A stretch of DNA of 64,000 nt from Antedon mediterranea. Taxonomy: Eukaryota; Echinodermata; Crinoidea; Comatulida; Antedonidae. Both the position numbers and the translations under genes were made by a program. The notes under the pieces were generated by a model. The model searched no databases, was not told the DNA's origin, and worked only from the letters and a program-made list of their open reading frames with translations. The stretch is from the NCBI RefSeq assembly GCF_964355755.1, contig NC_092670.1, forward strand, positions 1,203,001 through 1,267,000. Reading direction: 5' to 3'. Positions 4,499 to 61,500 of this stretch are shown in pieces. Positions within the stretch are counted from its first letter, which is position 1. Each line of letters begins with the position of its first letter.

Positions 4499-7400
4499 AT
4501 GGATATGAATATTTCTACTACCCCGGCACCAACGAATGGTTGCCCTGTGCCACCGGATAACGGAAATTCGTCTGCTTGCACTGGTCTTATACTTCCGATT
4601 ATTCCCGGTGAAGAAGATTGGAACCAAGGCTTTCGAGGTTTCTTATACATGGCTGGGTTGCTATGGAGTTTTATGGGTGTGGCCATCGTGGCAGATATTT
4701 TCATGGTAGCGATTGAGGTTATTACAAGTAAAACAAAGAAAGTGAAATTGGCCAATCCTGATGCGCCAGGCGGAATTGAGGAGATAGAAATTAGAGTATG
4801 GAACGATACTGTCGCAAATTTAACCCTTATGGCATTGGGTTCCAGTGCCCCGGAAATCCTTCTGTCTATAATAGAGATTGTTGGAAATAATTTCCATGCC
4901 GGAGAACTGGGACCAAGCACAATAGTGGGATCCGCAGCTTTTAACCTTTTGGTTATCACAGCTGTGTGTATCATGGGCATTCCTAAGGGAGAGTCAAAGA
5001 GGATTCGAACTATCAAAGTATTTATGGTCACTACATCATTCTCAATCTTCGCTTATATCTGGCTGTTCCTCGTCGTTTCTGTCATTTCCGAAAGCAAGGT
5101 AGATTTGTGGGAAGCTTTTGTCACCTTCTTGTGTTTTCCGATACTCATCATTATCGCCTTTGTCGCAGACAAAGATTATTGTGGCGAGAAAAAAGAGACG
5201 ACAGAGATTGAGCTAGGAGTTGGTAAGGATTTTTTTTACAAATTTTATAAAATTATTTTGTATTGTATGTACGGTAATTCATTTTTCATTTATCATCATT
5301 TACTCAAAAAGCCTGCTGTAAACCTATATATGCAAGGTGGGCTTTATACACAATAGGGACTAAACACACGGTGGGCTTATATTGTAAACAGGGTGCTTAT
5401 ACTATAAACAAGGTGGGCTTATACTGTACACAGGGTGGGCTTTTACATAGTGGGGACTATAGCACAGGGTGGGCTTATACTGTTCACAGGGCAGGCTTTT
5501 ACACAGCCGGGACTATAGCACAGGGTGGGCTTATACTGTTCACAGGGCAGGCTTTTACACAGCCGGGACTATAGCACAGGGTGGGCTTATACTGTACACA
5601 GGGCGGGCTTTTACACAGCCGGGACTATAGCACAGGGTGGGCTTATACTGTACACAGGGTGGGCTTTTACACAGCCGGGACTATAGCACAGGGTGGGCTT
5701 ATACTGTACACAGGGTGGGCTTATACTGTACACAGGGTGGGCTTATACTGTACACAGGGTGGGCTTTTACACAGTGGGGACTATAGCACAGGGTGGGCTT
5801 ATACTGTACACAGGGTGGGCTTATACTGTACACAGGGTGGGCTTATACTGTACACAGGGTGGGCTTTTACACAGTGGGGACTATAACACAGGGTGGGATT
5901 ATACTGTACACAGGGTGGGCTTTTACACAGTGGGGACTATAGCACAGGGTGGGCTTATACTGTACACAGGGTGGGCTTTTACACAGCCGGGACTATAGCA
6001 CAGGGTGGGCTTATACTGTACACAGGGTGGGCTTATACTGTACACAGGGTGGGCTTTTACACAGTGGGGACTATAGCACAGGGTGGGATTATACTGTACA
6101 CAGGGTGGGCTTTTACACAGTGGGGACTATAGCACAGGGTGGGCTTATACTGTACACAGGGTGGGCTTTTACACAGCCGGGACTATAGCACAGGGTGGGC
6201 TTATACTGTACACAGGGTGGGCTTATACTGTACACAGGGTGGGCTTTTACACAGTGGGGACTATAACACAGGGTGGGATTATACTGTACACAGGGTGGGC
6301 TTTTACACAGTGGGGACTATAGCACAGGGTGGGCTTATACTGTACACAGGGTGGGCTTTTACACAGTGGGGACTATAGCACAGGGTGGGCTTATACTGTA
6401 CACAGGGTGGGCTTATACTGTACACAGGGTGGGCTTATACTGTACACAGGGTGGGCTTTTACACAGTGGGGACTATAGCACAGGGTGGGCTTATACTGTA
6501 CACAGGGTGGGCTTTTACACAGCCGGGACTATAGCACAGGGTGGGCTTATACTGTACACAGGGTGGGCTTATACTGTACACAGGGTGGGCTTTTACACAG
6601 CCGGGACTATAGCACAGGGTGGGCTTATACTGTACACAGGGTGGGCTTTTACTGTACACAGGGTGGGCTTTTACACAGTGGGGACAATAGCACAGGGTGG
6701 GCTTTTACTGTACACAGGGTGGGCTTTTACACAGCCGGGACTATAGCACAGGGTGGGCTTATACTGTACACAGGGTGGGCTTTTACACAGCCGGGACTAT
6801 AGCACAGGGTGGGCTTATACTGTACACAGGGTGGGCTTATACTGTACACAGGGTGGGCTTTTACACAGTGGGGACTATAGCACAGGGTGGGATTATACTG
6901 TACACAGGGTGGGCTTTTACACAGCCGGGACTATAGCACAGGGTGGGCTTATACTGTACACAGGGTGGGCTTTTACTGTACACAGGGTGGGCTTTTACAC
7001 AGTGGGGACTATAGCACAGGGTGGGCTTATACTGTACACAGGGTGGGCTTATACTGTACACAGGGTGGGCTTATACTGTACACAGGGTGGGCTTTTACAC
7101 AGTGGGGACTATAGCACAGGGTGGGCTTATACTGTACACAGGGTGGGCTTATACTGTACACAGGGTGGGCTTATACTGTACACAGGGTGGGCTTTTACAC
7201 AGTGGGGACTATAGCACAGGGTGGGCTTATACTGTACACAGGGTGGGCTTTTACACAGCCGGGACTATAGCACAGGGTGGGCTTATACTGTACACAGGGT
7301 GGGCTTATACTGTACACAGGGTGGGCTTTTACACAGTGGGGACTATAGCACAGGGTGGGCTTATACTGTACACAGGGTGGGCTTTTACACAGCCGGGACT

Positions 7401-10400
7401 ATAGCACAGGGTGGGCTTATACTGTACACAGGGTGGGCTTATACTGTACTACACAAAGGATGATTGCAAATTTTGTAATTTAAAACTGATCCTTAAATGA
7501 ATATGATAGAATGACCTTTGAAAGTATATAGAGTAAAATACACAATCATAGAGGAAATTTACAGGATGAATTACTGTAGCTCACAAGGATGTCATGAATG
7601 ATATCAAGTTTATGTGACAAAAACTGTGAAAGTGTCCATATATGGACATGATGATGTCATATCACTATCATATTTGGGCACATCACACTTTTTTTTGTCG
7701 TCAAACTAGTTTGATAGTGTAGACAGAGCTTAAGAAATAGCAATTACGGTAGCTATTTTATTTTTTTATTTTTTAAGTACTGTTATTGTAAAAATAAAAA
7801 ATGAAATTCGTTGAGGTTAGAAACTGGTAAATAAATCATTCTATCCCTGGGAGTAGTTCAATTGTTCTTTTTAAATAAAAGTCTATTAGTCAACCATTGA
7901 TTCATTATAGCTGGCCTAAAGTTCCTTTTTGTGTGGGAGACAAGTTTAACTTACTTCATGAATAGGCAGGGAATTTACCATTCTGCCTACTCACATTTTA
8001 AATCTCCATATTTGGTACTGTGGTTCCCACAGGTAATCTTCATTATTTATGCTTTTGTAAATTTATTTTGATATAAAATGCAATGCAAAATATTTTAGTA
8101 TAGAACATTTCTCAATAAAAAATGAATTTTAAAATTTCACAGTCATATTTTTTAAAGGAAAATACCTTGTTAGGCTATTATTCTAGTATCGGTTGTTCTT
8201 CATTGTGACCATCAAGCACAGTAACATCATGACAGTGGTATACTTGTTTATAGATTAGAATAAAATACCACAACTCAATCATGGGTAAATTTCTGCCACA
8301 GTTCAGTTTTTCTGAGTCTGCTTTTGGAAAAACTATCTGTGTGGCAGTACAACAAACTTTTTCACCCATCAGTATAGGACAACCACACAGTATAGGACAA
8401 CCACACAGTATAGGACAACCACACAGTATAGGACAACCACACAGTATAGGACAACCATACAGTATAGGACAACCATACAGTATAGGACAACCATACAGTA
8501 TAGGACAACCATACAGTATAGGACAACCATACAGTATAGGACAAGCCCATACAATATAGGACAACCATACAGTATAGGACAACCATACAGTATAGGACAA
8601 GCCCATACAATATAGGACAACCATACAGTATAGGACAACCATACTATATACAGTAGGACAACCATACAGTATAGGACAACCATACAGTATAGGACAACCA
8701 TACAGTATAGGACAAGCCCATACAATAGGACAACCATACAGTATAGGACAACCATACAGTATAGGACAACCATACAGTATAGGACAACCATACAGTATAG
8801 GACAACCATACAGTATAGTACAACCATACAGTATAGGACAACCATACAGTATAGGACAACCATACAGTATAGGACAACCATACAATATAGGACAACCATA
8901 CAATATAGGACAACCATACAGTATAGGACAACCATACAGTATAGGACAACCATACAATATAGGACAACTGGATACAGTATAGGACAACCATACAGTATAG
9001 GACAACCATACAGTATAGGACAACCACACAGTATAGGACAACCATACAATATAGGACAACCATACAGTATAGGACAACCATACAGTATAGGACAACCATA
9101 CAATATAGGACAACCATACAGTATAGGACAACCATACTGTATAGGACAACCATACAGTATAGGACAACCATACAGTAGACAACCATATTAGGCCTAGAGT
9201 ATAGGCCTTCTCCACTTTTTTTAACTTTTAATGTTTTTGTCTTCCATTTTGCAACAAACTAGTAGGTCCTCCACAAATTATGCCCGCAGTGAAGCTTACT
9301 GTTGTTTACTATTCTAAACATTACAGTGACGTACTCACTGTAATGTATAGTACTGTATGTTCTGTACTAAGCTTGGATTAGGCTTAGTGCATTGATGCTC
9401 ATAATAGCTGCTACACTTCAATGATTACATTAAAAATTCATCAGCTATACTACAGTACATCAGCCCAAATGGCTCTATAGAAGTATCACACTCAGCCACT
9501 GTAAAAGTATGCAGCACATTTGCACAAAACGCTTATCACTGTAGTGTAAGTAAGCCCAGCTACTGTATTTTATTGTATTTTCTTACAAAATATGATATGA
9601 AAAGGTAATATGCAAGAGCATCTCTGTTGATAACTCTGACAACATTTGTCATATTTAACATATTACAGTAGTCCCTTGTAGTAAAAACAAGATTTGCAAA
9701 CAATTTTCCATGGTATAATACTGTAAGTCTGTATTTTATGCTTGATTTAAACATAAGGTTGTTTCTGTTCTGCTCTGGATTTCCATTTTCTTTTCTATAT
9801 TTGAGGTTTTTAATTCACGTAAACAGATTGATTAAAGTGTGCAGTATTCATTAATTTCATAAAAGAAATTCTCGAATTAAACGTTTCTAATGGATAAACC
9901 TTGTAACACAATTACCTCAGTTACTGTAATTACTATACGCAATTATTAAAGCCACATCCCAAGAGGTTTAATGTTATTAGAATTTACATATCGCCCTAGC
10001 TGAGAAAATTACTAACATAAAATACATTAACTAAATACTTTCAATAAATTATTCATTCTCTTTTGAGGAATTATGTAGATATTAAATTGGTGATATAACA
10101 TGGATATTTTCCAATACTTGTACTTTCACCACACTTGGGAAGTAATGTAGTGAGATTCCAATATCCATCCTGTAATTGGACTTGCTGTAGGATATGAACA
10201 TTTAAAAAATAATAATCGATAAAAAGTGAAAGGTATACAAAAATCCAAACTTTTGAATATTTGACCTGCAAAAAATAATCTTAAAATTTCAGACCACCAA
10301 AATGATAATGTGAAATGTTATATAATCCATAGCTAGAGGCAGAACAAGAACTTTTTAACTGGGTCAAACAAGGTCAACAAGTAGCCTACAAATTAGGGAC

Positions 10401-22400: not shown

Positions 22401-25400
22401 TTACCTTTATCTATAAAATGCATATTCTCTAATTTTACAATTCTTTGTACATTAATGATTTTGTTATGTTATGTTTCAGAAGAATTTTATAATTATTCAA
22501 ATAAAAAACAAAATAATAGTTTATAGTAATTTTTAATTTGATTGGTATAGTCTAAAAGTTGCATTGAATAAATTTAATTCAGGTAAACTAAATTGGTTAT
22601 GATAATTGTTTTTACTACTAAAAGTTCTAATACTGTGCAGAAACAGTGTGGTGGTAGGTAGGTCTAGGCTCATCAACAATCAATGCCAGTATAAAATTGT
22701 TAAGGAAAGTACATTCAAAATTTTTAAAATATACACTTAATGGTAAACATAAACATAGTAAACAAATAAGACATGGAAGGATCAAGAAGGTATATCTAGT
22801 TAGTAACACTATAACACTGCAGTATATGACACTACAATACTAGTAACACTATAACACTACAGTATATGACACTACAATACTAGTAACACTATAACACTGC
22901 AGTATATGACACTACAATACTAGTAACACTATAACACTACAATACTAGTAACACTATAACACTGCAGTATATGACTCTACAATACTAGTAACACTATAAC
23001 ACTGCAGTATATGACTCTACAATACTAGTAACACTATAACACCACAGTATATGACACTACAATACTAGTAACACTATAACACTACAATACTAGTAACACT
23101 ATAACACTACAGTATATGACACTACAATACTAGTAACACTATAACACTACAGTATATGACACTACAATACTAGTAACAGTATAACACTACAGTATATGAC
23201 TCTACAATACTAGTAACACTATAACACTGCAGTATATGACTCTACAATACTAGTAACACTATAACACTACAGTATATGACACTACAATACTAGTAACACT
23301 ATAACACTACAGTATATGACACTACAATACTAGTAACACTATAACACTGCAGTATATGACACTACAATACTAGTAACACTATAACACTGCAGTATATGAC
23401 ACTACAATACTAGTAACACTATAACACTACAGTATATGACACTACAATACTAGTAACACTATAACACTGCAGTATATGACACTACAATACTAGTAACACT
23501 ATAACACTACAGTATATGACACTACAATACTAGTAACACTATAACACTACAGTATATGACACTACAATACTAGTAACACTATAACACTACAGTATATGAC
23601 ACTACAATACTAGTAACACTATAACACTACAGTATATGACACTACAATACTAGTAACACTATAACACTGCAGTATATGACACTACAATACTAGTAACACT
23701 ATAACACTACAGTATATGACACTACAATACTAGTAACACTATAACACTGCAGTATATGACACTACAATACTAGTAACACTATAACACTACAGTATATGAC
23801 ACTACAATACTAGTAACACTATAACACTACAGTATATGACACTACAATACTAGTAACACTATAACACTACAGTATATGACACTACAATACTAGTAACACT
23901 ATAACACTACAGTATATGACACTACAATACTAGTAACACTATAACACTGCAGTATATGACACTACAATACTAGTAACACTATAACACTACAGTATATGAC
24001 ACTACAATACTAGTAACACTATAACACTGCAGTATATGACACTACAATACTAGTAACACTATAACACTACAGTATATGACACTACAATACTAGTAACACT
24101 ATAACACTGCAGTATATGACACTACAATACTAGTAACACTATAACACTACAGTATATGACACTACAATACTAGTAACACTATAACACTACAGTATATGAC
24201 ACTACAATACTAGTAACACTATAACACTGCAGTATATGACTCTACAATACTAGTAACACTATAACACTACAATACTAGTAACACTATAACACTACAGTAT
24301 ATGACACTACAATACTAGTAACACTATAACACTACAGTATATGACACTACAATACTAGTAACACTACAGTATGTGACACTACAATACTAGTAACACTATA
24401 ACACCACAGTATATGACTCTACAATACTAGTAACACTATAACACTACAATACTTTGTAACACAATAACACTACAGTATTTGACACTACAATACTAGTAAC
24501 ACTATAACACTGCAGTATATGACACTACAATACTAGTAACACTATAACACTACAATACTAGTAACACTATAACACTACAGTATTTGACACTACAATACTA
24601 GTAACACTATAACACTGCAGTATATGACACTACAATACTAGTAACACTATAACACTACAATACTAGTAACACTATAACACTACAGTATATGACACTACAA
24701 TACTAGTAACACTATAACACCACAGTATATGACACTACAATACTAGTAACACTATAACACTACAATACTAGTAACACTATAACACTACAGTATATGACAC
24801 TAAAATACTAGTAACACTATAACACTACAGTATATGACACTACAATACTAGTAACAGTATAACACTACAGTATATGACACTACAATACTAGTAACACTAT
24901 AACACTGCAGTATATGACACTACAATACTAGTAACACTATAACACTACAGTATATGACACTACAATACTAGTAACACTATAACACTACAGTATATGACAC
25001 TACAATACTAGTAACACTATAACACTACAGTATATGACACTACAATACTAGTAACACTATAACACTACAGTATATGACACTACAATACTAGTAACACTAT
25101 AACACTGCAGTATATGACACTACAATACTAGTAACACTATAACACTACAGTATATGACACTACAATACTAGTAACACTATAACACTGCAGTATATGACAC
25201 TACAATACTAGTAACACTATAACACTACAGTATATGACACTACAATACTAGTAACACTATAACACTACAGTATATGACACTACAATACTAGTAACACTAT
25301 AACACTACAGTATATGACACTACAATACTAGTAACACTATAACACTACAGTATATGACACTACAATACTAGTAACACTATAACACTGCAGTATATGACAC

Positions 25401-28400
25401 TACAATACTAGTAACACTATAACACTACAGTATATGACACTACAATACTAGTAACACTATAACACTGCAGTATATGACACTACAATACTAGTAACACTAT
25501 AACACTACAGTATATGACACTACAATACTAGTAACACTATAACACTGCAGTATATGACACTACAATACTAGTAACACTATAACACTACAGTATATGACAC
25601 TACAATACTAGTAACACTATAACACTACAGTATATGACACTACAATACTAGTAACACTATAACACTGCAGTATATGACTCTACAATACTAGTAACACTAT
25701 AACACTACAATACTAGTAACACTATAACACTACAGTATATGACACTACAATACTAGTAACACTATAACACTACAGTATATGACACTACAATACTAGTAAC
25801 ACTACAGTATGTGACACTACAATACTAGTAACACTATAACACCACAGTATATGACTCTACAATACTAGTAACACTATAACACTACAATACTTTGTAACAC
25901 AATAACACTACAGTATTTGACACTACAATACTAGTAACACTATAACACTGCAGTATATGACACTACAATACTAGTAACACTATAACACTACAATACTAGT
26001 AACACTATAACACTACAGTATTTGACACTACAATACTAGTAACACTATAACACTGCAGTATATGACACTACAATACTAGTAACACTATAACACTACAATA
26101 CTAGTAACACTATAACACTACAGTATATGACACTACAATACTAGTAACACTATAACACCACAGTATATGACACTACAATACTAGTAACACTATAACACTA
26201 CAATACTAGTAACACTATAACACTACAGTATATGACACTAAAATACTAGTAACACTATAACACTACAGTATATGACACTACAATACTAGTAACAGTATAA
26301 CACTACAGTATATGACACTACAATACTAGTAACACTATAACACTACAGTATATGACACTACAATACTAGTAACACTATAACACTACAGTATATGACACTA
26401 CAATACTAGTAACACTATAACACCACAGTATATGACACTACAATACTAGTAACACTATAACACTACAATACTAGTAACACTATAACACTACAGTATATGA
26501 CACTACAATACTAGTAACACTATAACACTACAGTATATGACACTACAATACTTCATCATATTTATAATCATTATTGTACTATTTAGTATTATTACATATA
26601 CAGCCCTACTACTATTAGATTAAAAGCTAGCCATGCGCAACAGGCAACAATTTTGCATCGCTCTCTTGGGATTTTTGTTGTCACATAAGTAATATAAATA
26701 TCACAAGAGTAACATTAAACAAGAACAATTTGACACGTTGGCAAATTTTAGAATGTTAAAAAATATCATGCTGGCTCAGACGTAAACATGTTCTTGACTG
26801 AAACATAACATTTGGAAGAAAAGAAAAATCATATTAATAAATTGTTTTAAAGTTGTACAGGTCTCCATCTAATTAAGTTGTCAGCTTTCCAAGAATTCTG
26901 AATATTAACATTTTCTTGCATTTGTTTGCTACTAGAAATATTATAATTCAAGGAGTATTATTTTGTTTTTTATTAACTAGCTACAGCAGTATTTGTAGTA
27001 CAAAAGATAATATTTACTTAAATCAGAGAAGAGAGATTATTAATTAAACAATGGAATCCCAGGGTTGCTCAATATACAACAAAATCCCAGGGTGCTCAAT
27101 ATACAACAGAATACCAGGGTGCTTAATATACAACAGAATACCAGGGTGCTTAATATACAACAGAATACCAGGGTGCTTAATATACAACAGAATACCAGGG
27201 TGCCCAATATACAACAGGGTTCTCAATGTTCAACTTGAGCTGCATCTGGCCTACAGCAAAGAGCTACATGAAACCAAAGCTTGTTAAAGCTTGAAGCAAC
27301 ATGTTCATGACTCTCTATATTCAAATTCACATTACATATAGATTGGGATTCTTTACAACCTTACAGCTACTGTACGACAAGAACTTATTTATCTTCTTAT
27401 TAAGAAAGAATAAATAATGTTATAGTGATAGTAATCCAGTAAATTCTGTTGCTTCATCATTGATCAGATCGGTCCTATGCTTCTGGTTTGATGACAAACT
27501 ACTATTATCCGTTACCTAACATTTTTTTTTTTAAACTAAATAGTAGATATATTAAAATTTAAGTTTAAATAAAAAATATGTACAATTTTAGTTTCCATTC
27601 TGTAGCTTGCTGTTACAAATGATGTTAAAACCTTTATGGTCCTAAAAGAGTAACCTCCAAGTTACAAAATGGCAGCTTGTGCTTAGAAACACTATTGAAT
27701 ATTTTATATACTATATGACTCAAATGGTGACTACGTCATCTTCAAACTAAACACAATTACTATCTAATAATAATAAGACTGAGTTATACAGTTTGAAATC
27801 TAATATAAATTTCTAATATTTTGCAATAAACTTTAACATCGACCTTGGAAACATTTACTAATCTTTGTTAGAAATTGCATGAAACGTTGATGGATATTGG
27901 AATGTTTCTATCTATATGCAAACGCATATTACTTGGGCATATATAGTATTATTTTATGTAGAAACCTGAAATTTAATGAGTAAATAGATGAATGCATGGC
28001 AAATAAGTTGGCTCATTCTTCATTCATTCATTTTCTAAGTATGCAAATTAAGTTGTTCATGTTCTATAAATTAATGCAACTATGTTTGCTGCAGTTATTT
28101 ATTGCGACCAAAAACAAATTTATTTTTGAATAGAATTATCAATAAATCACCTTGCAATGTATATTAATTGTTGATGATAATGAATGCATTGCATTTTAAT
28201 TGCAAACTTTAAGGTGGATGCATATCTTTATTGGAAGATCTTTAAACAGAACTAGCTTACTTTAAAAAGATACTTCATACAATGGAGGACGGTTGAAGCT
28301 AGGTGGAGGTCTTTAGAACTAGAATTTTGGGTTTTGGCAACTATATCCATATACTTTCAAAACATTTATACAGAAATAATAATTAATGAATTAATAAAGA

Positions 28401-49536: not shown

Positions 49537-52500
49537 TTACGTTGAGATAAAAAGCTGCTCCAACCCTACACCGTGTCCACTGACCCGGAACCGGGCTAAA
49601 TCCTTTCTGGTTACTATACCAACGACCTGTAGAAATAAATATGAGCAGAAACAAGAAACAGTAATTATTAATTATGCAAGATGGTCTATTAATGGATTAC
49701 TTAATCAATTGACAATAATTAACACTCCTTGAAATATTATTACATAATGATCTAGGCAATACCTTTTCTAATTTAATACTTTTAGATAAAAAGTTTATAT
49801 TACTTGCTTTATTTGTTTACTTTTGCTTAATGATTTATGAACGCTACGTTTAAATAATTCTTGTTAAAACTTGTTCGTTTGAACTCGGAATGAGCTTGTA
49901 GCAATGTAAAGGTCACCACAAAGTGTATGAGTGATTATAGTGCTTAACTTAAAACATATATACAGGACATTTACAACAGCAATAAAAACACAACTAATTA
50001 CCTCATTGCAATCATTTACGACCACAAGATGGCGCAATCCAATCGCACGGAATAGACGGAAAATTCTTGGAAGTGAAGCATCCTAGGATAAGATACACAA
50101 CAAATCAAAATCAAATACGAGTTTTAAAAACAGTTGAAAATAAAGCGTTAAATAATTAAATAATAATATCAAACTAATTTGGATGATATCAAATTAACAA
50201 TAGCACTGGTACTAACCTCTGAAACAGAATACGGTGCCTGATTCATAAAAGGTCGAAGGTCAACGCTTGCCTGTCGTTCCAAATGTGTAATGTTCAGGGT
50301 TGAGATGTCTGGGAATCTAGGATAACTATTTTGGAAATCTTTGGTTCTAAGTTTATGGTCACTTGCATCGCTTAATGGGAATGTACTGTAAGCCTGTAAA
50401 AACATGATTTCATCAAAATAAGAAACTTTACACTGGCATAAACATAAAGAAATCAACAATAATAAAAGTGGGATGAGTTAAAGAGGTACAGCTGCAACTT
50501 GTCATTTTTTAAATGATAAAATTAAGAGCATACCTTATGTTTAAGTATAATAAGAAGTTGATCACGTAAAATGAGGCCTCTAAACGTACCAAAAGTTGAC
50601 CCATTCTGAAAGATAACATAACATCTTTTACTTTATATAAATGCATAGTTCAATTAAAGACAACAGGTAAGCAAATAACCTTAACCAACACTAAATTAAG
50701 TGTTGAGTGGGGACGCACCTGATCGTGAGGGTCGACCACAGGAAATCCATTGTGTTTAGAATCTTTACAACTTAATACATCAATGATACGTCCAACATTT
50801 TCAATTGTGTTTAAAGTTACTACAGGCTGGTTCATTACCTCACTGAAAAAAACAATCAATAAAATTGATGTTGATATTAAGAAAATGATATTGATCATAA
50901 TTTATTTATTCAACTTTATTTTACAAGGGTACCTCTCAGTTGTACTACAGCAGTACCAGCTGACATGGGTAAGAGGCCCTCTCAGTTGTACTACAGCAGT
51001 ACCAGCTGACATGGGTAAGAGGCCCTCTCAGTTGTACTACAGCAGTACCAGCTGACTTAGGTAAGAGGCCCTCTCAGTTGTACTACAGCAGTACCAGCTG
51101 ACATGAGTAAGAGGCCCTCTCAGTTGTACTACAGCAGTACCAGCTGACTTGGGTAAGAGGCCCTCTCAGTTGTACTACAGCAGTACCAGCTGACTTGGGT
51201 AAGAGGCCCTTTCAGTTGTACTACAGCAGTACCAGCTGACTTGGGTAAGAGGCCCTCTCAGTTGTACTACAGCAGTACCAGCTGACTTGGGTAAGAGGCC
51301 CTCTCAGTTGTACTACAGCAGTACCAGCTGACTTGGGTAAGAGGCCCTCTCAGTTGTACTACAGCAGTACCAGCTGACTTGGGTAAGAGGCCCTCTCAGT
51401 TGTACTACAGCAGTACCAGCTGACTTGGGTAAGAGGCCCTCTCAGTTGTACTACAGCAGTACCAGCTGACTTGGGTAAGAGGCCCTCTCAGTTGTACTAC
51501 AGCAGTACCAGCTGACTTGGGTAAGAGGCCCTCTCAGTTGTACTACAGCAGTACCAGCTGACTTGGGTAAGAGGCCCTCTCAGTTGTACTACAGCAGTAC
51601 CAGCTGACTTGGGTAAGAGGCCCTCTCAGTTGTACTACAGCAGTACCAGCTGACTTGGGTAAGAGGCCCTCTCAGTTGTACTACAGCAGTACCAGCTGAC
51701 TTGGGTAAGAGGCCCTCTCAGTTGTACTACAGCAGTACCAGCTGACATGGGTAAGAGGCCCTCTCAGTTGTACTACAGCAGTACCAGCTGACTTGGGTAA
51801 GAGGCCCTCTCAGTTGTACTACAGCAGTACCAGCTGACTTGGGTAAGAGGCCCTCTCAGTTGTACTACAGCAGTACCAGCTGACTTGGGTAAGAGGCCCT
51901 CTCAGTTGTACTACAGCAGTACCAGCTGACTTGGGTAAGAGGCCCTCTCAGTTGTACTACAGCAGTACCAGCTGACTTGGGTAAGAGGCCCTCTCAGTTG
52001 TACTACAGCAGTACCAGCTGACTTGGGTAAGAGGCCCTCTCAGTTGTACTACAGCAGTACCAGCTGACTTGGGTAAGAGGCCCTCTCAGTTGTACTACAG
52101 CAGTACCAGCTGACTTGGGTAAGAGGCCCTCTCAGTTGTACTACAGCAGTACCAGCTGAGTTGGGTAAGAGGCCCTCTCAGTTGTACTACAGCAGTACCA
52201 GCTGACATGAGTAAGAGGCCCTCTTAAAAAACAATACAAATAAATACAGATGAATAAAGATACAATATGATTTATAAAGTTAAAATTCTCAAACAGATAA
52301 CAGTTTTAAAATTGAAACAAAATTTAAGATATTATTGATGTTAACATTCATGATGATAATAATTTTATAGAAGACTTACTACTGTATTGGTATTGAAAAC
52401 CCTCATCACATCACAAAATAATTCCAAATATACACATTTTATTTGCTGCTTTCTTAAATATGATATAGTAACAATAAAAAGGAGCATGATCTAACCGTGC

Positions 52501-55500
52501 ATGAATATTAGCAGTTAGCTGTGGTGGTTCCCATGGCAATATAGGAACACTCTGTAGTTGTATGTGTATGTCATACAGGCCTTCGTTGAATATGTCTCCT
52601 ATCCATTTAGCAAAGACAAGAACCAGCATAAGAGGTAGACCATATGTTATGTTGCCTGTTGCCTCGATTAAAATGACAGTTAAACTGATGGTCATCCGTA
52701 ACACTCCCCCTGATTGATAACAAAAACAATTATTATTGTGTATCACCATACACACAATATAAAAACACACCATAAATTGTATTTGACAAGTCTCAATGGT
52801 AACTCACAAAAGTCAAATGATGAATTTAAAAAGGTATTTGTCTTAAGCTCTGTCTACACTATCAAACTTTATGTGAACAAAAATGTGATGTGCCGATACA
52901 GTATATCGACATGATGATATTTAGGCACATCACTACCATATTTAGGCACATCACTACCATATTTAGGCACATCACTACCATATTTAGGCACATCACTACC
53001 ATATTTAGGCACATCACACTTTTTTTGTCAAATTAGTTTGATAGTGTTCCTTATATTAGTCATCTTTTACAATTACAATAAAATCATATTATGTTTACCT
53101 AGATGGGCTGCTGCTCCTATTAGTGCGTATTTACCAGGATCAGACAATTGCTAAAGAAAAAAAAGTGGTATATTTTAAAAAGAAATCTATTTAGAAAGTC
53201 ATAAACCAATAGGCTTATGTATGTCAATGTTATTAACATATTTCAATTAACAACACAATCAAACTTAACGCTATTTGTACAATATAGTCTACAAAAACAA
53301 ATATAATATTTATATAAACACTAAAAAGAAACATCTTAATACACTTACTGCGTCTGGTAAAACAGTATTAATCAGAATACCACATAAACGACCCCAAGCT
53401 GCTCCCGTAAGGATGCACGGAATGAAAAGCCCGCTTGGAATGTTGAGTCCGTATGTCCAGCACGAAAGTAGAAAATATACAATAAAAAACACTAATAAAG
53501 TTTTGACTGAGTAAGCATCTGAAACACAAAAGAAAACAAGAAAAATGTTTATCTTTCGTGAGGACAACCCTCTTTTATTTCGTTCCAAACTTTCAGTAGC
53601 ATATAAAACTAGAAAGACACTCCAAGAGTGCATACCTCCGCCTACTGTGAAATTCTCCTACATAAGATTTCTCCGGTAAAAAAGAAATATATATATATAT
53701 TTGTGTGTGTCTTAATGCTGTTTGTGATTTAGGCTAATTTCACTACAAGCATGTGTATGCGAGTTTGGTGTAATGGCTATGTAACAAGCCTTTCAATTAA
53801 CAATAGCTTCAGTTGACTAACAATAGAACAGCAACGTGAAAATCAAACGAGTGAATTTGAAAAGAAATAGGTTTATAAAACAGAATTATAATAATGTTAG
53901 TTTAAATCAAACCTGTTGATCTATTAAGTGAGAAACATGCTTGTTTAATGAAGGTTAATGGTTCAAATCCTGATTGACTACATTAAAGCTCTGTCTACAC
54001 TATCAGACTGTGATGTGCCAGAATATGGTAGTGATATGCCATCATCGTGTCTACATATGGGCATATCACATAGGTAAATTATATATACATCACATGAGTA
54101 TAGTATAGGTTTATCAATAAAGCTCTGTCTACATTATCAGACTGTGATGTGCCAGAATATGGTAGTGATATGCCATCATCGTGTCTACATATGGGCACAT
54201 CACATAGGTAAATTATATATACATCACATGAGTATAGTATAGGTTTATCAATAAAGCTCTGTCTACACTATCAGACTGTGATGTGCCAGAATATGGTAGT
54301 GATATGCCATCATAGTGTCTACATATGGGCACATCACATAGGTAAATTATATATACATCACATGAGTATAGTATAGGTTTATCAATAAAGCTCTGTCTAC
54401 ACTATCAGACTGTGATGTGCCAGAATATGGTAGTGATATGCCATCATAGTGTCTACATATGGGCACATCACATAGGTAAATTATATATACATCACATGAG
54501 TATAGTATAGGTTTATCAATAAAGCTCTGTCTACACTATCAGACTGTGATGTGCCAGAATATGGTAGTGATATGCCATCATAGTGTCTACATATGGGCAC
54601 ATCACATAGGTAAATTATATATACATCACATGAGTATAGTATAGGTTTATCAATAAAGCTCTGTCTACACTATCAAATTTTATGTGACAAAATATGTGAT
54701 GTGCCCATATGGACATGATGATGTCATATCACTACTACATTTGGTCATATCACTACCATACTTGGTCACATCACACTTATTTTTCAAACTAATTTGATAG
54801 TGTAGACAAGGCTTTAGAGTAGAGTAGAACAAAATGATATACCTGGTGGATCGTGGAAGAGGTTTTTGATGGACGCTTCTGGCGTACTAAAAAACAAACT
54901 AGCTGTTGCCGAGTATTCCCCATCAGCACAGAACATCTGGCAAACAAATTTGAAAATCAATCAATATTAATTGCGCAAACAATTCTTTTGCAGAAAATTA
55001 AATGATTATTTTTGAACAAGAAGGAAGTAATGTGTACAAAATTCTTTTTATCAAACCAATGGTACAAATTACGAGATTAGATTGTAAATTACCTTCTTCT
55101 CCCGATAAAAGAATTGTTGACACATTGTTAATTACAAACCAGATGAACATTTACAAACAAGGAAGTAAAATGTATTTTAATGCAATGACATAATGCAATG
55201 ACATAATCTGTAAAGATCTGTCTACACTATCAATCTAGTTTGACAAAAAAACGTATGATGTGCCCAAATACTGTAGTAATATAACATCGTGTCCATAGAT
55301 GGGCACATCACATTTTTTTCTCACATAAAGTTTGATAGTGTATCTTTAGGTATGTAAATAACGTACTGTATGAAGGGCAAACGCTGTCTTAATTTGATAT
55401 CTCCTTACCTGCAATGGATATTTGACCTCTTCCTGTGGTAACGACCTACAATCTTGAATATTGTATATTGCTAAGAAAGCTAAAGTTGCTGTAACACTAG

Positions 55501-58500
55501 CAACTAACATGGCTTCTACCAAATGCATCCATCTTTTATATAAATACCTAAACAAAAACAAAAAAATTCTTTGTGAGGAAAGTTATTCATAGGCTAGACA
55601 TAACTCAGTCAGGCAAGCAAGTGTCATTACGGTTAAAAAAGACATATTTATTCAACCTCCTAAATATCAAATGTAATCCAAATCTGGCTATTAAACTTTA
55701 ACATAGACCAGGTATGTGTAAACACTGCCTAGACTAAACTATATAAACATTAGGTATGTTAAGATATCTGTTACACTTAGCTGCTTCCTGTTTTTAAATC
55801 TTCTAAAATTCTTCCTACACTATCAAACTAGTTTGACAAAAAAGTGTGATGTGCCCAAATATGGTAGTGATATGCCCAAATATGGTATTGACATGACATC
55901 ATCATGGCACATCACATTTTGTTGTCACATATAAAGTTAGATAGTGTAGACAGAGCTTATGATACAGTTTTTCTATTTTCTTCCAGTTTACATTATTAGC
56001 CAGAGCAGAATACACACTTTTACTTACTTGATTCTAAATACAGATAACCTATAGTTAACTGTGTTAAAGAGAGCACCCAGAAGACCACCAATTACAGCCA
56101 TTGCAATAAATATTGGTATTTCATAGCCATAGTAATCTTTGCCCTAGAAAAAAGAGGTAAAACAGGGGGATTAGAGCAAAGAAAAAGGAGGATTAGAGCA
56201 AAGAAAAAGGAGGATTAGAGCAAAAACATGGGGATTAGAACAAAGAAAAAGGAGGATTAGAGCAAAGAAAAAGGAGGATTAGAGCAAAAACATGGGGATT
56301 AGAACTATTTATCAATCATTCATTCTTTTTTTGGGGTAAATTCTTAAATTTTCATTCTGAGAGTTAATTCTACCACCTTCTGCCGTAACATTAACATACT
56401 TGATTTTTTTTAAGTTTTTCATTCAGTTTAAGGTCAACACAGGGTCAACATAAAACCCATAGCATCTTGTTAATGCACCCTTAATGTTTTTTAATTGTAT
56501 AATCTAAAAAATACTTTACCTCAAATTGTCCAAAATTGACCAGACCAGGACTTGACAGACTCCATGGATCATTATGGTAATAACTTAACAGAACATTCAA
56601 CGTAAAAGTAGACACCATCGATGCAAAAAACTGTGTGAAAAAGTAACAATGATTATTAACTTAGTGGCATAGTTTTTGCTACAATAAACAACATAAACTT
56701 TTACTTACTATTCTCCATGTTAGACTTTGATTCCAGAAGCTAGCACCCTCTTCTAAACTAAAAAGCACGCCCCCTACAGGAGCTCCGAAGGCAGCTGATA
56801 CACCAGCGGCTGCACCTCCGGAAACAAAATCACGCTTTTCATGATCCGATCGGAAATACTGAAACAGTTTACAATCAAATTTGAACGAGGTGCTTCTTCC
56901 TTGAGAAATTCCAGCTGCAACAACTGCGCCAGAATGAATCATAGGCCCTTCCTGATTCAAAATAATAAAAGAAGTGAAAATGAAATATTGTATCTTATTA
57001 TTAAGTAAAGCCTGTCAGGTCTTTGGTAGTAAGAGTTAGCTCTCATCTTTTTAAAAAAAGATAATCTGGACGATGTTTGGAAAGTTTAGTTCTACTCAGC
57101 ATGGCAGATTAGTGGACATTCTTCTACTTCTCCGACATTATTTGCAGAAATTTTCTATTAGTTGCAAGGGTCTTTACTTGGTTATACTAGCAATTCTGGC
57201 AAAGGAATCCTAAGGATTGCACAATTTAGGAGTTATAATTTGGCTAAGTTGGAGAGGCCACTACAACTTTGTGACCTCTATTTTATTATTTTTTTACAGA
57301 ATGATGCCTGGATGAATACAATTGTAATATAATAATGAAAAGAAAACACAAACTAAATAAATAACAAAAGTATAACTAACCTTGCCAATGGCTAGCCCTC
57401 CTGACATGCCAAATATGACACCGATGACTTTAGTAAAAAGAGTTTTAATTCGTACAACATGAGGTATTTTGACTCCATTTAAGTAACATTTAATTTGTGG
57501 TATTCCACTTCCTGCAGCTACAGGCTGTAAACAAAGGCATACAAATGAACTTTTACTTACAGTATCTTTCAAACCAATCTTAACTAATAATAGTCTGCAA
57601 AAAAAGCATATATGTTATTTGCATTTACTACACGATCTTATATTCAAAATTGTATAGTCTTATATCCTATTCACATCTGCATAAATTGAGGTTGATCTTG
57701 AGAAGAATCTAGGGATAGGAAAGCATAGCAATTTGATTAGGTCCCTTTGATTACTATGATTGATCAGTTTAATACAAGATCAATACATGCGCATGCAGTA
57801 ACAACTTTGGACATCATCAGTGTGATTTTCCACAAGATTGTGTCATCTCTTGCAAACCTGGTTACAACTTGTTACTTTTTGCAGATGTGCAAAGGGTAAT
57901 AGAGTCATATAATAATAATTATATATAAAAAGGACGACCTTATGAAGTGTTGAAATATCAGCTTACCTCTACAAAAGTTACAAGAATTGCTGCTATAGAA
58001 ACAAACCCAACATCCACTGCCAACCATAAAAGGAACGGTATCAGAATGCTAGTGCTCTCTAGATCATGATCAATATCTAAGGTTAACTGTTAAGAACTAT
58101 AATGTACCGTTGTCTAATAGTTACGCTCTAAAGGCTTCAAAACTTGCATTGAATGGAAATGACAGGTCAATTGACGTTGAGTTGAGTGACTGTTTACCAT
58201 TTCTTGTTTATTTTTTAATCTGAATGCTCAGAGAATTTGTTTATGCCTTCAAAATTATATATTTTAGGTACTGATGCTGTTTTTGGCCTTTTTAGAAAGG
58301 ATTTGAATAATAAGTTATCAAGCTACATTAAACAATTGGAAGTTGCCACAGATGATCATGTCAAGTTTTATAAAGGATACATTTACTAACTAATGCGTAT
58401 TTGGCGCCAGCTAACTTATCGATCATTACATCAATAAACGCCGCAATGCACGCTGTAATCACTCCAATCAGTAACATTACAAACCACCGTGCAGTCTGTA

Positions 58501-61500
58501 TCCGCCGGATCATAGATGTCTAAAAAGAGAATAATTAAAATTCCCAAAACATTTCTTACTATTTATTTAATATTAGATTTTTGTTGAATAACACTCTGGA
58601 TACTGAATTACAATAGTCTTTTCATATCGATACAATGGTGACCTTTAAAATTGTAAATGGGTGGCAATTATTTTATGACAGATAAGAAGATGATAAGTAG
58701 TATACAGTGTGCCTAAAATCTAAACTACATTTATTGTATAATTCAATAGGATTCACTTTCACTTTCAGTTTTGTTTTTTTAAATTTATTTATTTACTGAA
58801 TATTGTTGTTATATGAGTGTCAACATATATATAAACACAACAGGCATAGAAATAAATTTCAAACCGCCCGGTGATACACTGAAAATTATTTAATTAATTT
58901 TTGAAACGATAAAGATGAGGAAATCTGTGAGAATGAGAAAAAGTCGCCCCAACCGAAACTCGAACTCGGACCGTCTGCTTGATATGCAGTTGCCCTAACC
59001 ATTAGACCACTGGGGCTTTCATGGTATTGTTCTTTAACTCGATTGGATAACGACCCTTTAACATTCTCGGCGTGGTACGGTTGGAACACAACTAGTCCTC
59101 AGTTGTACGCACGCGCACCAGAGATCAAATTGATACGCCCTCATCTATAATTCAGTATATATTCACTAAGCGGGATCTCGAGAGATACTTTTATATATAT
59201 ATAAACACAACGGGCATAGAAATAAATTTCAAACCGCCCGGTGATATATATATATATTCACCCAATTATTGGTACTGTAATAGATTACACCAGTATCATT
59301 CCATAACACAGCATCACATGTGTTTTACTGTGATATAGTTGCTGTATTACTGAATATTTCTATGATACTGGGTAAATATGTTTGTATGTAGAGATACAGC
59401 ACTGACAATCCGGTAATATATTAAATATTGCAATGTGTAGAGCCCCTTGACTGCCATTCATTCTCCTTAACTTGGAGTGAAATTGGTGAATCCCGACAGG
59501 TGACTTGTCTTACCTTAGATCCTACTTGTTTTTGTTCTTTAAAATACAATGAGTTCTCTACAATATCATAATCTAAACTCTATAAAGAAAGAAAGAACAA
59601 GTTTGAATTATTTTCATATTTGGTTCTCCCTATGTCAACTGTCAACATAGGAATAATTTACTTTATATACTACAATGCCCACCTGGACAGTTTTGTCCTT
59701 ATTGCTAAAGTATTACGGAAACATCCATAACAACGAAAATTTGGTCCAATTACGGACGTACGAAAATTGAGAATACTAATGAAAACTGGCTAAAAATTGT
59801 TGGATGTCCTTATTGCCAATTTAGAGTTTATGGGCTCAGATGAGTATGTGGTAAATTTAAACTTTAACATTTAGCCTGGGGTTCTCCTAGGTAAATCTTT
59901 CTTCAAAATATGTGTACAATGCTGTATCATCAATTGTTATCAAACCAAAATATTTGGAGTTTCCCCCGGGGTAATTCCCAAACAATAAACATCATGTGTT
60001 ATATTACATTCATGTGGATCATTGTGTAACTAACAATGTTGCAATACATTTTTAGTCAAAATTGAAAAAACAGAAAGTGTACCAGATTTCAATTATTAAC
60101 TATTTCCTCATGCTCAGCAGGATGTAAAAGTTTATTTAATTCAGGTTTCTACTGAAAGTTATATACCATACAAAGGAAACAACACACAAAAATATAGTTA
60201 AATATTATTTTGAAAACAATCACTTGTTCTGTGACAAATTTGCGTGATTCTTGCTCATATTTTTGTAATCAGGTGATTTTTTGTAGCAGACATTTCCTCT
60301 TTACATTTCGGTGTCCTTAATTTAAAAAATAATTCAATTTTTTTTTTCAATCAATGTACTGTTTATTTCATAAAAACATAAAACAAAATTGTTGTGTTAC
60401 CATATAAGATCAAACAATAATTATAATGATTTTACTGTGTTTATTGTTAAATGAAGTATGTTACAGTGTAACATGTGGCATATTATAAACATTAGTAATC
60501 ATTTTAAACTAAGTTAGACCTTGAGCAGAGCCATGAGGTAATTTCCCGATTGATCGTAATCAAAACGGTACTGGGTTTGGTCTACTAGCGTTCCTGCTCC
60601 CAACCAGTACATCCATTCATAGAAGCCTTAACGAAGTAAGCCTACCTGGTGGTGGCCATAGAACGGTCCCGAGATAACGACTATACTTCGGCTTTAGTCG
60701 ATAGAAGATTGAATAAATTGTTAGAGATGAGGGAGAGTATACGATGTACAGACAATGGTTTCATCATGAAACTTTAATCCTTATAAATTATTATTGAAAT
60801 AAGTCTTTCCTGAGAAAGAATGTATTAAAACTCTGTCTACACTATCAAACTATATGTGACAAAACAATGTGATGTGCCCATATATGGATAATGATGTCAT
60901 ATCACTACCATATTTGGGAATACCACTACCATATTTGGGCACATCAAACTAGTTTGATAGTGTAGAGAGTGCTTTAAGTAACTCTTCATTTCATCCGTTA
61001 CCTCAAACTTTGACGACAACAACTTCATTGTCCCCATTTGTTGCACTTCTTCAGGTGACTTCTAGAAAATGAAATCAATTTTATCATAATTACCAAAAAT
61101 CTAATTTGGCTAATTTGTGTTCATACTTATAAAAACAAGTTGCTACTGATTGTCACCTAACTAAGTTGGTATAGTAGCAATGGTTGTCACTAAAGACATG
61201 TACTAATAATTGTCATTAAATTAAAGACAAGATGCAATCATGATGGTCTCTGCTACTTATCATTTTTAAATTATACTTTTAAGTTGTATTATTAAATACT
61301 TCATTTAGAAACTTACATAAAGAGACGATTAAGTTGGTCTGTAAAACTAAACAATAATAAATGAGATTTATAAAAAATGAAATCATTCATTTGCTGACCG
61401 CTATAATATGTTATCTGAGTAGTAGTACTTAGCAAGTACTTTTAGTAGACTTAGCTAAAAGTATATAAACTGTATATACTATTATATTTAAAAATCTGAT

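Follow-up and report, generated by a model that had tools for sequence, protein, structure and literature searches.

A young 134-bp intronic minisatellite with a MITE-derived unit head in Antedon mediterranea

The array and its host intron

In the 64,000-nucleotide stretch of Antedon mediterranea DNA that was analyzed here (hereinafter, the window), translated exons matching Voltage_CLC, with ClC-7 as the best structure matches, delineate a GT-AG intron of a CLCN7-like gene. This intron contains five tandem units of 134 bp (53984-54653, 5 x 134 bp) that pass without a gap into a complete MITE (54654-54816). Together, the array and the complete MITE span 833 bp and occupy 63% of the intron, with 25 bp separating the outer end of the MITE from the 5' splice site. 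The features of the locus are as follows:

53519..54842, minus strand: host intron, 1324 bp, GT-AG, of the CLCN7-like gene (translated exons)
53984..54117, plus strand: unit 1, 134 bp, with C63 and T81 (units 1 to 5 by TRF, BLAST and unit comparison)
54118..54251, plus strand: unit 2, with a private T17 and C63
54252..54385, plus strand: unit 3, with A63, derived
54386..54519, plus strand: unit 4, exactly identical to unit 3
54520..54653, plus strand: unit 5, exactly identical to unit 3
53984..54071, plus strand: MITE-derived unit head, present in every unit; terminal repeat and ~66 bp of the interior, right part missing; 78-92% identical to dispersed copies
54072..54117, plus strand: non-MITE unit tail, ~46 bp, present in every unit and flanking the terminal MITE on the left (genome search, shuffles)
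54654..54816, minus strand: complete terminal MITE, hairpin-forming, with both terminal repeats (from these and the fold); the strand is that of its interior, opposite to the units
54654..54675, plus strand: 22-bp terminal repeat TAAAGCTCTGTCTACACTATCA, putative recombination substrate; the first mismatch is at position 23
54795..54816, minus strand: right terminal inverted repeat of the complete MITE, 91% complementary to the terminal repeat of the unit

In the window, TRF reports this array at 53984-54696 with a period of 134, 5.3 copies, 98% matches and a score of 1356. The five units vary at only three sites, namely unit positions 17, 63 and 81; BLAST within the window aligns each of the other units to unit 1 with 132/134 identity, and overall the units are 98.5-100% identical. 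The original prediction, according to which five 134-bp units contain the left end of a MITE along with some of its interior and are followed by a complete MITE with a right terminus, is borne out in both respects by these comparisons and by the 87-bp matches to dispersed copies described below. The region is generally rich in tandem repeats, and the window additionally contains several large minisatellites unrelated to the MITE, at 22801-26552 (40 bp x 90), 5401-7449 (56 bp x 36), 50932-52224 (46 bp x 28) and 8366-9177 (18 bp x 45).

The MITE family and the make-up of the repeat unit

The dispersed element to which the units are related has the properties of a MITE: its numerous copies are ~110-165 bp long and lack coding capacity. 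The 19-bp end of the element occurs in 11,784 exact copies in the genome, compared to 0 for the reversed control, and 104 matches in a similarity search were counted toward the dispersed copies. The 22-bp ends of the complete element are terminal inverted repeats with 91% complementarity, of which the units retain one and lack the right one. Most of 33 copies are flanked by TAA or TTA on both sides; the two flanks are identical in 16 copies vs ~10 expected, and often TAA is found on the left and TTA on the right, a pattern compatible with duplication of TA or TWA. A search for PF13359, as a possible autonomous partner of the MITE, yielded matches in 150 genomic places. Other copies in the window are located at 52845-53047, 55211-55342, 55815-55958 and 60827-60976, and given this clustering, close neighbors are to be expected. 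The first of these copies includes an internal 21-bp motif in 4.8 identical copies (52917-53017), compared to ~2-2.5 in the other copies in the window, and is a better case of a repeat born within a MITE than the 134-bp array.

Each unit of the array consists of a MITE-derived head of ~88 bp and a tail of ~46 bp, one third of the unit, that is not MITE sequence. In a whole-genome search, unit positions 1-87 (counted from 53985) matched dozens of dispersed copies with 78-92% identity and E values from 1e-26 to 1e-16, and the local alignment of the unit with the MITE has a score of 130, with a maximum of 33 among shuffled sequences (n=300). Thus, the homology of the unit to a dispersed element extends beyond chance, as in a tandem repeat derived from a transposable element, and the alignment to genomic MITE copies suggested in the original prediction supports the relationship over the 88 bp. 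The head corresponds to a short variant of the MITE in which a deletion follows the terminal repeat, similar to the copies L019 and L020.

Searching the 354-Mb genome with the tail (query 54072-54138) yielded matches solely in five places inside the array. We rejected the possibility that the tail is a decayed right end of the MITE (131 of 300 dinucleotide shuffles score equally high) and, there being no convincing match in the 600 bp to the left or to the right, the possibility that it was copied from the nearby flank. The 88-bp head is thus genuine MITE sequence, but the notion of a MITE turning into a tandem repeat is not supported, given that the unit also includes ~46 bp of unique flank and that the complete MITE at the end is a separate copy (see below). 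The complete 134-bp unit is found in the 354-Mb genome at this locus only. With five units at one locus, the array falls short of satellite DNA, for which long arrays and/or many loci are expected; to present it as an intermediate in satellite birth was an overstatement, considering also that MITE ends are not overrepresented in arrays (see below).

The array seam and its proposed origin

The complete MITE is not a continuation of the units but a second copy, with an opposite interior, and its contribution is limited to the 22-bp terminal repeat. Between its interior and the units, matches occur exclusively on the opposite strand (e.g., MITE positions 39-99 with 54072-54010). In the direct orientation, the identity between the unit start and the complete MITE is limited to the 22 bp of TAAAGCTCTGTCTACACTATCA, the two sequences diverging from position 23, and the left flanks of the unit and of the complete MITE differ at once (ACTACAT vs TTATCAA). 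The complete MITE starts exactly in phase with a sixth unit (53984 + 5 x 134 = 54654), a coincidence with a chance of ~1 in 134 if this MITE had inserted independently. The array closes in a partial copy, that is, a short direct repeat present at both of its edges, with an exact overlap of 22 bp. Because the interior of the complete MITE is reversed relative to the units, a second MITE copy is required, and the 22-bp identity, the opposite interior and the in-phase start jointly imply two MITEs, with the seam of the array inside their terminal repeat. The sequence of this terminal repeat was not found in print in the literature searched.

Based on this structure, we propose that the array probably originated from two neighboring MITEs, one truncated and one complete, through an exchange between their direct terminal repeats that duplicated 134 bp. 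Under this scenario, a truncated MITE (A), of which 88 bp were kept, would have been located upstream of a complete one (B) from the same family; the two starts would have been 134 bp apart, with ordinary DNA accounting for the ~46 bp between the elements. The terminal repeats of A and B would then have formed a direct pair of identical 22-bp sequences at this distance of 134 bp. Such pairs need no special arrangement: given that the two ends of a MITE are the same short sequence in inverted orientation, any two neighboring MITEs, whatever their orientation, contain a pair of terminal repeats in direct orientation. The 134 bp between the repeats of A and B could then be duplicated through replication slippage or unequal sister-chromatid exchange involving these repeats, and once two full copies were present, the longer homology would drive further growth. 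Either event would yield exactly the observed unit and the exact 22-bp overlap. We infer the two-copy ancestor and the exchange event from the structure of the locus, in which slippage and crossover would look the same.

The order of growth can be read from unit position 63, which is C in 22 and T in 2 of the aligned dispersed copies, C in units 1 and 2, and A in units 3 to 5. Because A63 differs from the C or T of the dispersed copies, the identical units 3 to 5, which are adjacent to the complete MITE, are derived and the newest. Identity between the head and the closest of the sampled dispersed copies is 91-94%, compared to 98.5-100% among the units, and the array is therefore younger than the MITE insertion.

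Other arrays at MITE ends and alternative explanations

The idea that MITE ends might be hot spots of tandemization arose from three MITE-end arrays within the first 3.5 Mb of C1: the array in the window and two more C1 arrays, with periods of 42 and 92, that were detected among the first 100 of the 11,784 MITE-end places listed. We then have a sample of 388 independent sites, consisting of exact MITE ends picked by flank triplet across much of the genome, which gave one further array, with a period of 90, on C5. The three additional arrays are:

L044 456-2085 (C1:410755-412384): 42-bp array, ~39 copies, MITE end and 16 bp, running into a short MITE
L045 1-4862 and L047 from ~8958: 92-bp array, ~53 copies, containing a miniature foldback version of the MITE whose right end is truncated
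L046 1633-2384 (C5:3248632-3249383): 90-bp array, right half of the MITE and 14 bp of flank, with a complete MITE at its start

The background was defined as the chance that an arbitrary 25-mer lies within the founding unit of an array of three or more copies; it amounts to 0.37% in the window and 0.52% in a 114 kb scattered sample. Accordingly, 1.4-2.0 arrays would be expected for arbitrary sequence, compared to the 1/388 found for MITE ends. With MITE ends at the background rate, we dropped the hot-spot idea: there is no excess of MITE ends in arrays, and hence MITE ends are not special seeds. Overall, tandem arrays account for ~3-12% of the sampled DNA (3.8 of 114 kb in the scattered sample and 7.9 of 64 kb in the window).

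Among the four MITE-end arrays, the seam is located exactly in the terminal repeat only in the 134-bp array. The edges of the 42-bp array have 34 bp in common, including 8 bp of flank, and those of the 92-bp array consist of a truncated MITE end with flank, with no complete MITE at either edge. Because the edges of the other three arrays are not the terminal repeat alone, the route via two terminal repeats is not general for the family; for the 42- and 90-bp arrays, one MITE with an internal breakpoint is sufficient. The 90-bp array is the mirror image of the 134-bp array. In the 42-bp array, a C/T variant of the terminal repeat is scattered through the units on the left but lacking in the rightmost third, which represents a homogenization gradient. 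Three MITE-end arrays lie within ~1 Mb at C1:0.41-1.41 Mb, possibly an array-rich chromosome end.

The hairpin of the complete MITE itself might have been the seed of the 134-bp array, if a replication fork stalled at it and a template switch re-copied the upstream truncated MITE, the flank and the first terminal repeat; template switching or fork stalling of this kind would leave a similar structure. Indeed, the complete MITE is predicted to fold strongly as single-stranded DNA (z = -7.6 vs shuffles), and in L044 and L046, too, the array adjoins a complete MITE and includes flank together with a MITE end. By itself, however, this mechanism does not account for the exact 22-bp overlap at both edges, and a hairpin-driven process predicts an enrichment of MITE ends in arrays that is not seen genome-wide (1/388), so we consider it unlikely. 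Quite improbable, in our assessment, is an ordinary tandem duplication that caught the truncated MITE by chance, as it could any stretch of this repeat-rich genome, the complete MITE having arrived later, via insertion or gene conversion at the edge. The background rate of arrays at MITE ends (1/388 vs 0.37-0.52%) and the breakpoints in the other arrays, which are unrelated to the terminal repeat, are in line with such an accident, whereas the exact unit phase of the complete MITE and the lack of unit sequence on its far side argue against it.

A stronger proposition, that MITE termini actively and repeatedly provoke tandem amplification, through transposase nicking or hairpin fork stalling, especially near chromosome ends, appears highly doubtful, even with two further arrays within ~1 Mb of the 134-bp array near the C1 end vs ~0.3 expected (from ~60 other listed MITE ends). 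An assembly error in the copy number or order of the units is extremely improbable: the identity of units 3 to 5 makes a read-based copy number hard to fix, but 833 bp fit within a single long read, private variants distinguish units 1 and 2, and the flanks are unique on both sides. Finally, the possibility that the 134-bp unit is an independent satellite that matches the MITE terminus by chance, for which only the unrelated ~46 bp could speak, is practically negligible in view of the 88-bp alignment to dispersed MITEs and the confinement of the unit to a single locus.

Relation to known systems and implications

Tandem repeats derived from MITEs and foldback elements are well documented (PMC9659126, PMC12628747, PMC4079207, PMC6947457), and closely spaced or ectopically recombining elements are known to start tandem arrays (reviewed in PMC12628747). 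The proposed exchange between two MITEs resembles the model of Haber and Louis (1998), as described in PMC6947457, under which short direct repeats flanking a motif, the future unit, start minisatellites that later grow via longer homology; unlike in that description, the direct repeats here are 22 bp long and come from two MITE termini. Similarly, in the birth of satellites from double or neighboring transposon insertions (McGurk and Barbash 2018, as cited in PMC9659126), two close copies of one element supply the homology for unequal exchange, whereas the unit described here combines a MITE fragment with a non-transposon spacer, and one of the elements is truncated. Neighboring MITE copies have been invoked also for Xstir on a Xenopus MITE (Hikosaka and Kawahara 2004, in PMC12628747); the Xstir repeats, in the account of PMC12628747, derive from internal MITE sequence and are dispersed, unlike the 134-bp unit, which is confined to one locus. 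In the Tetris element of Drosophila virilis, with its TIR-220 repeats, the terminal-repeat sequence of a foldback element likewise appears in tandem arrays, but the repeats are already present within the element and make up satellite arrays of kb size in beta-heterochromatin (PMC4079207).

The 134-bp array is a private intronic minisatellite; nothing suggests a function, and most likely it is neutral intronic DNA. Given that ~3-12% of the sampled DNA is in arrays, chance alone is expected to place transposon ends in arrays, and caution is due. The array is a clean and young case of repeat birth by a known route rather than a new process, and the locus illustrates, on a small and easily read scale, how abundant inverted-repeat elements may start minisatellites.
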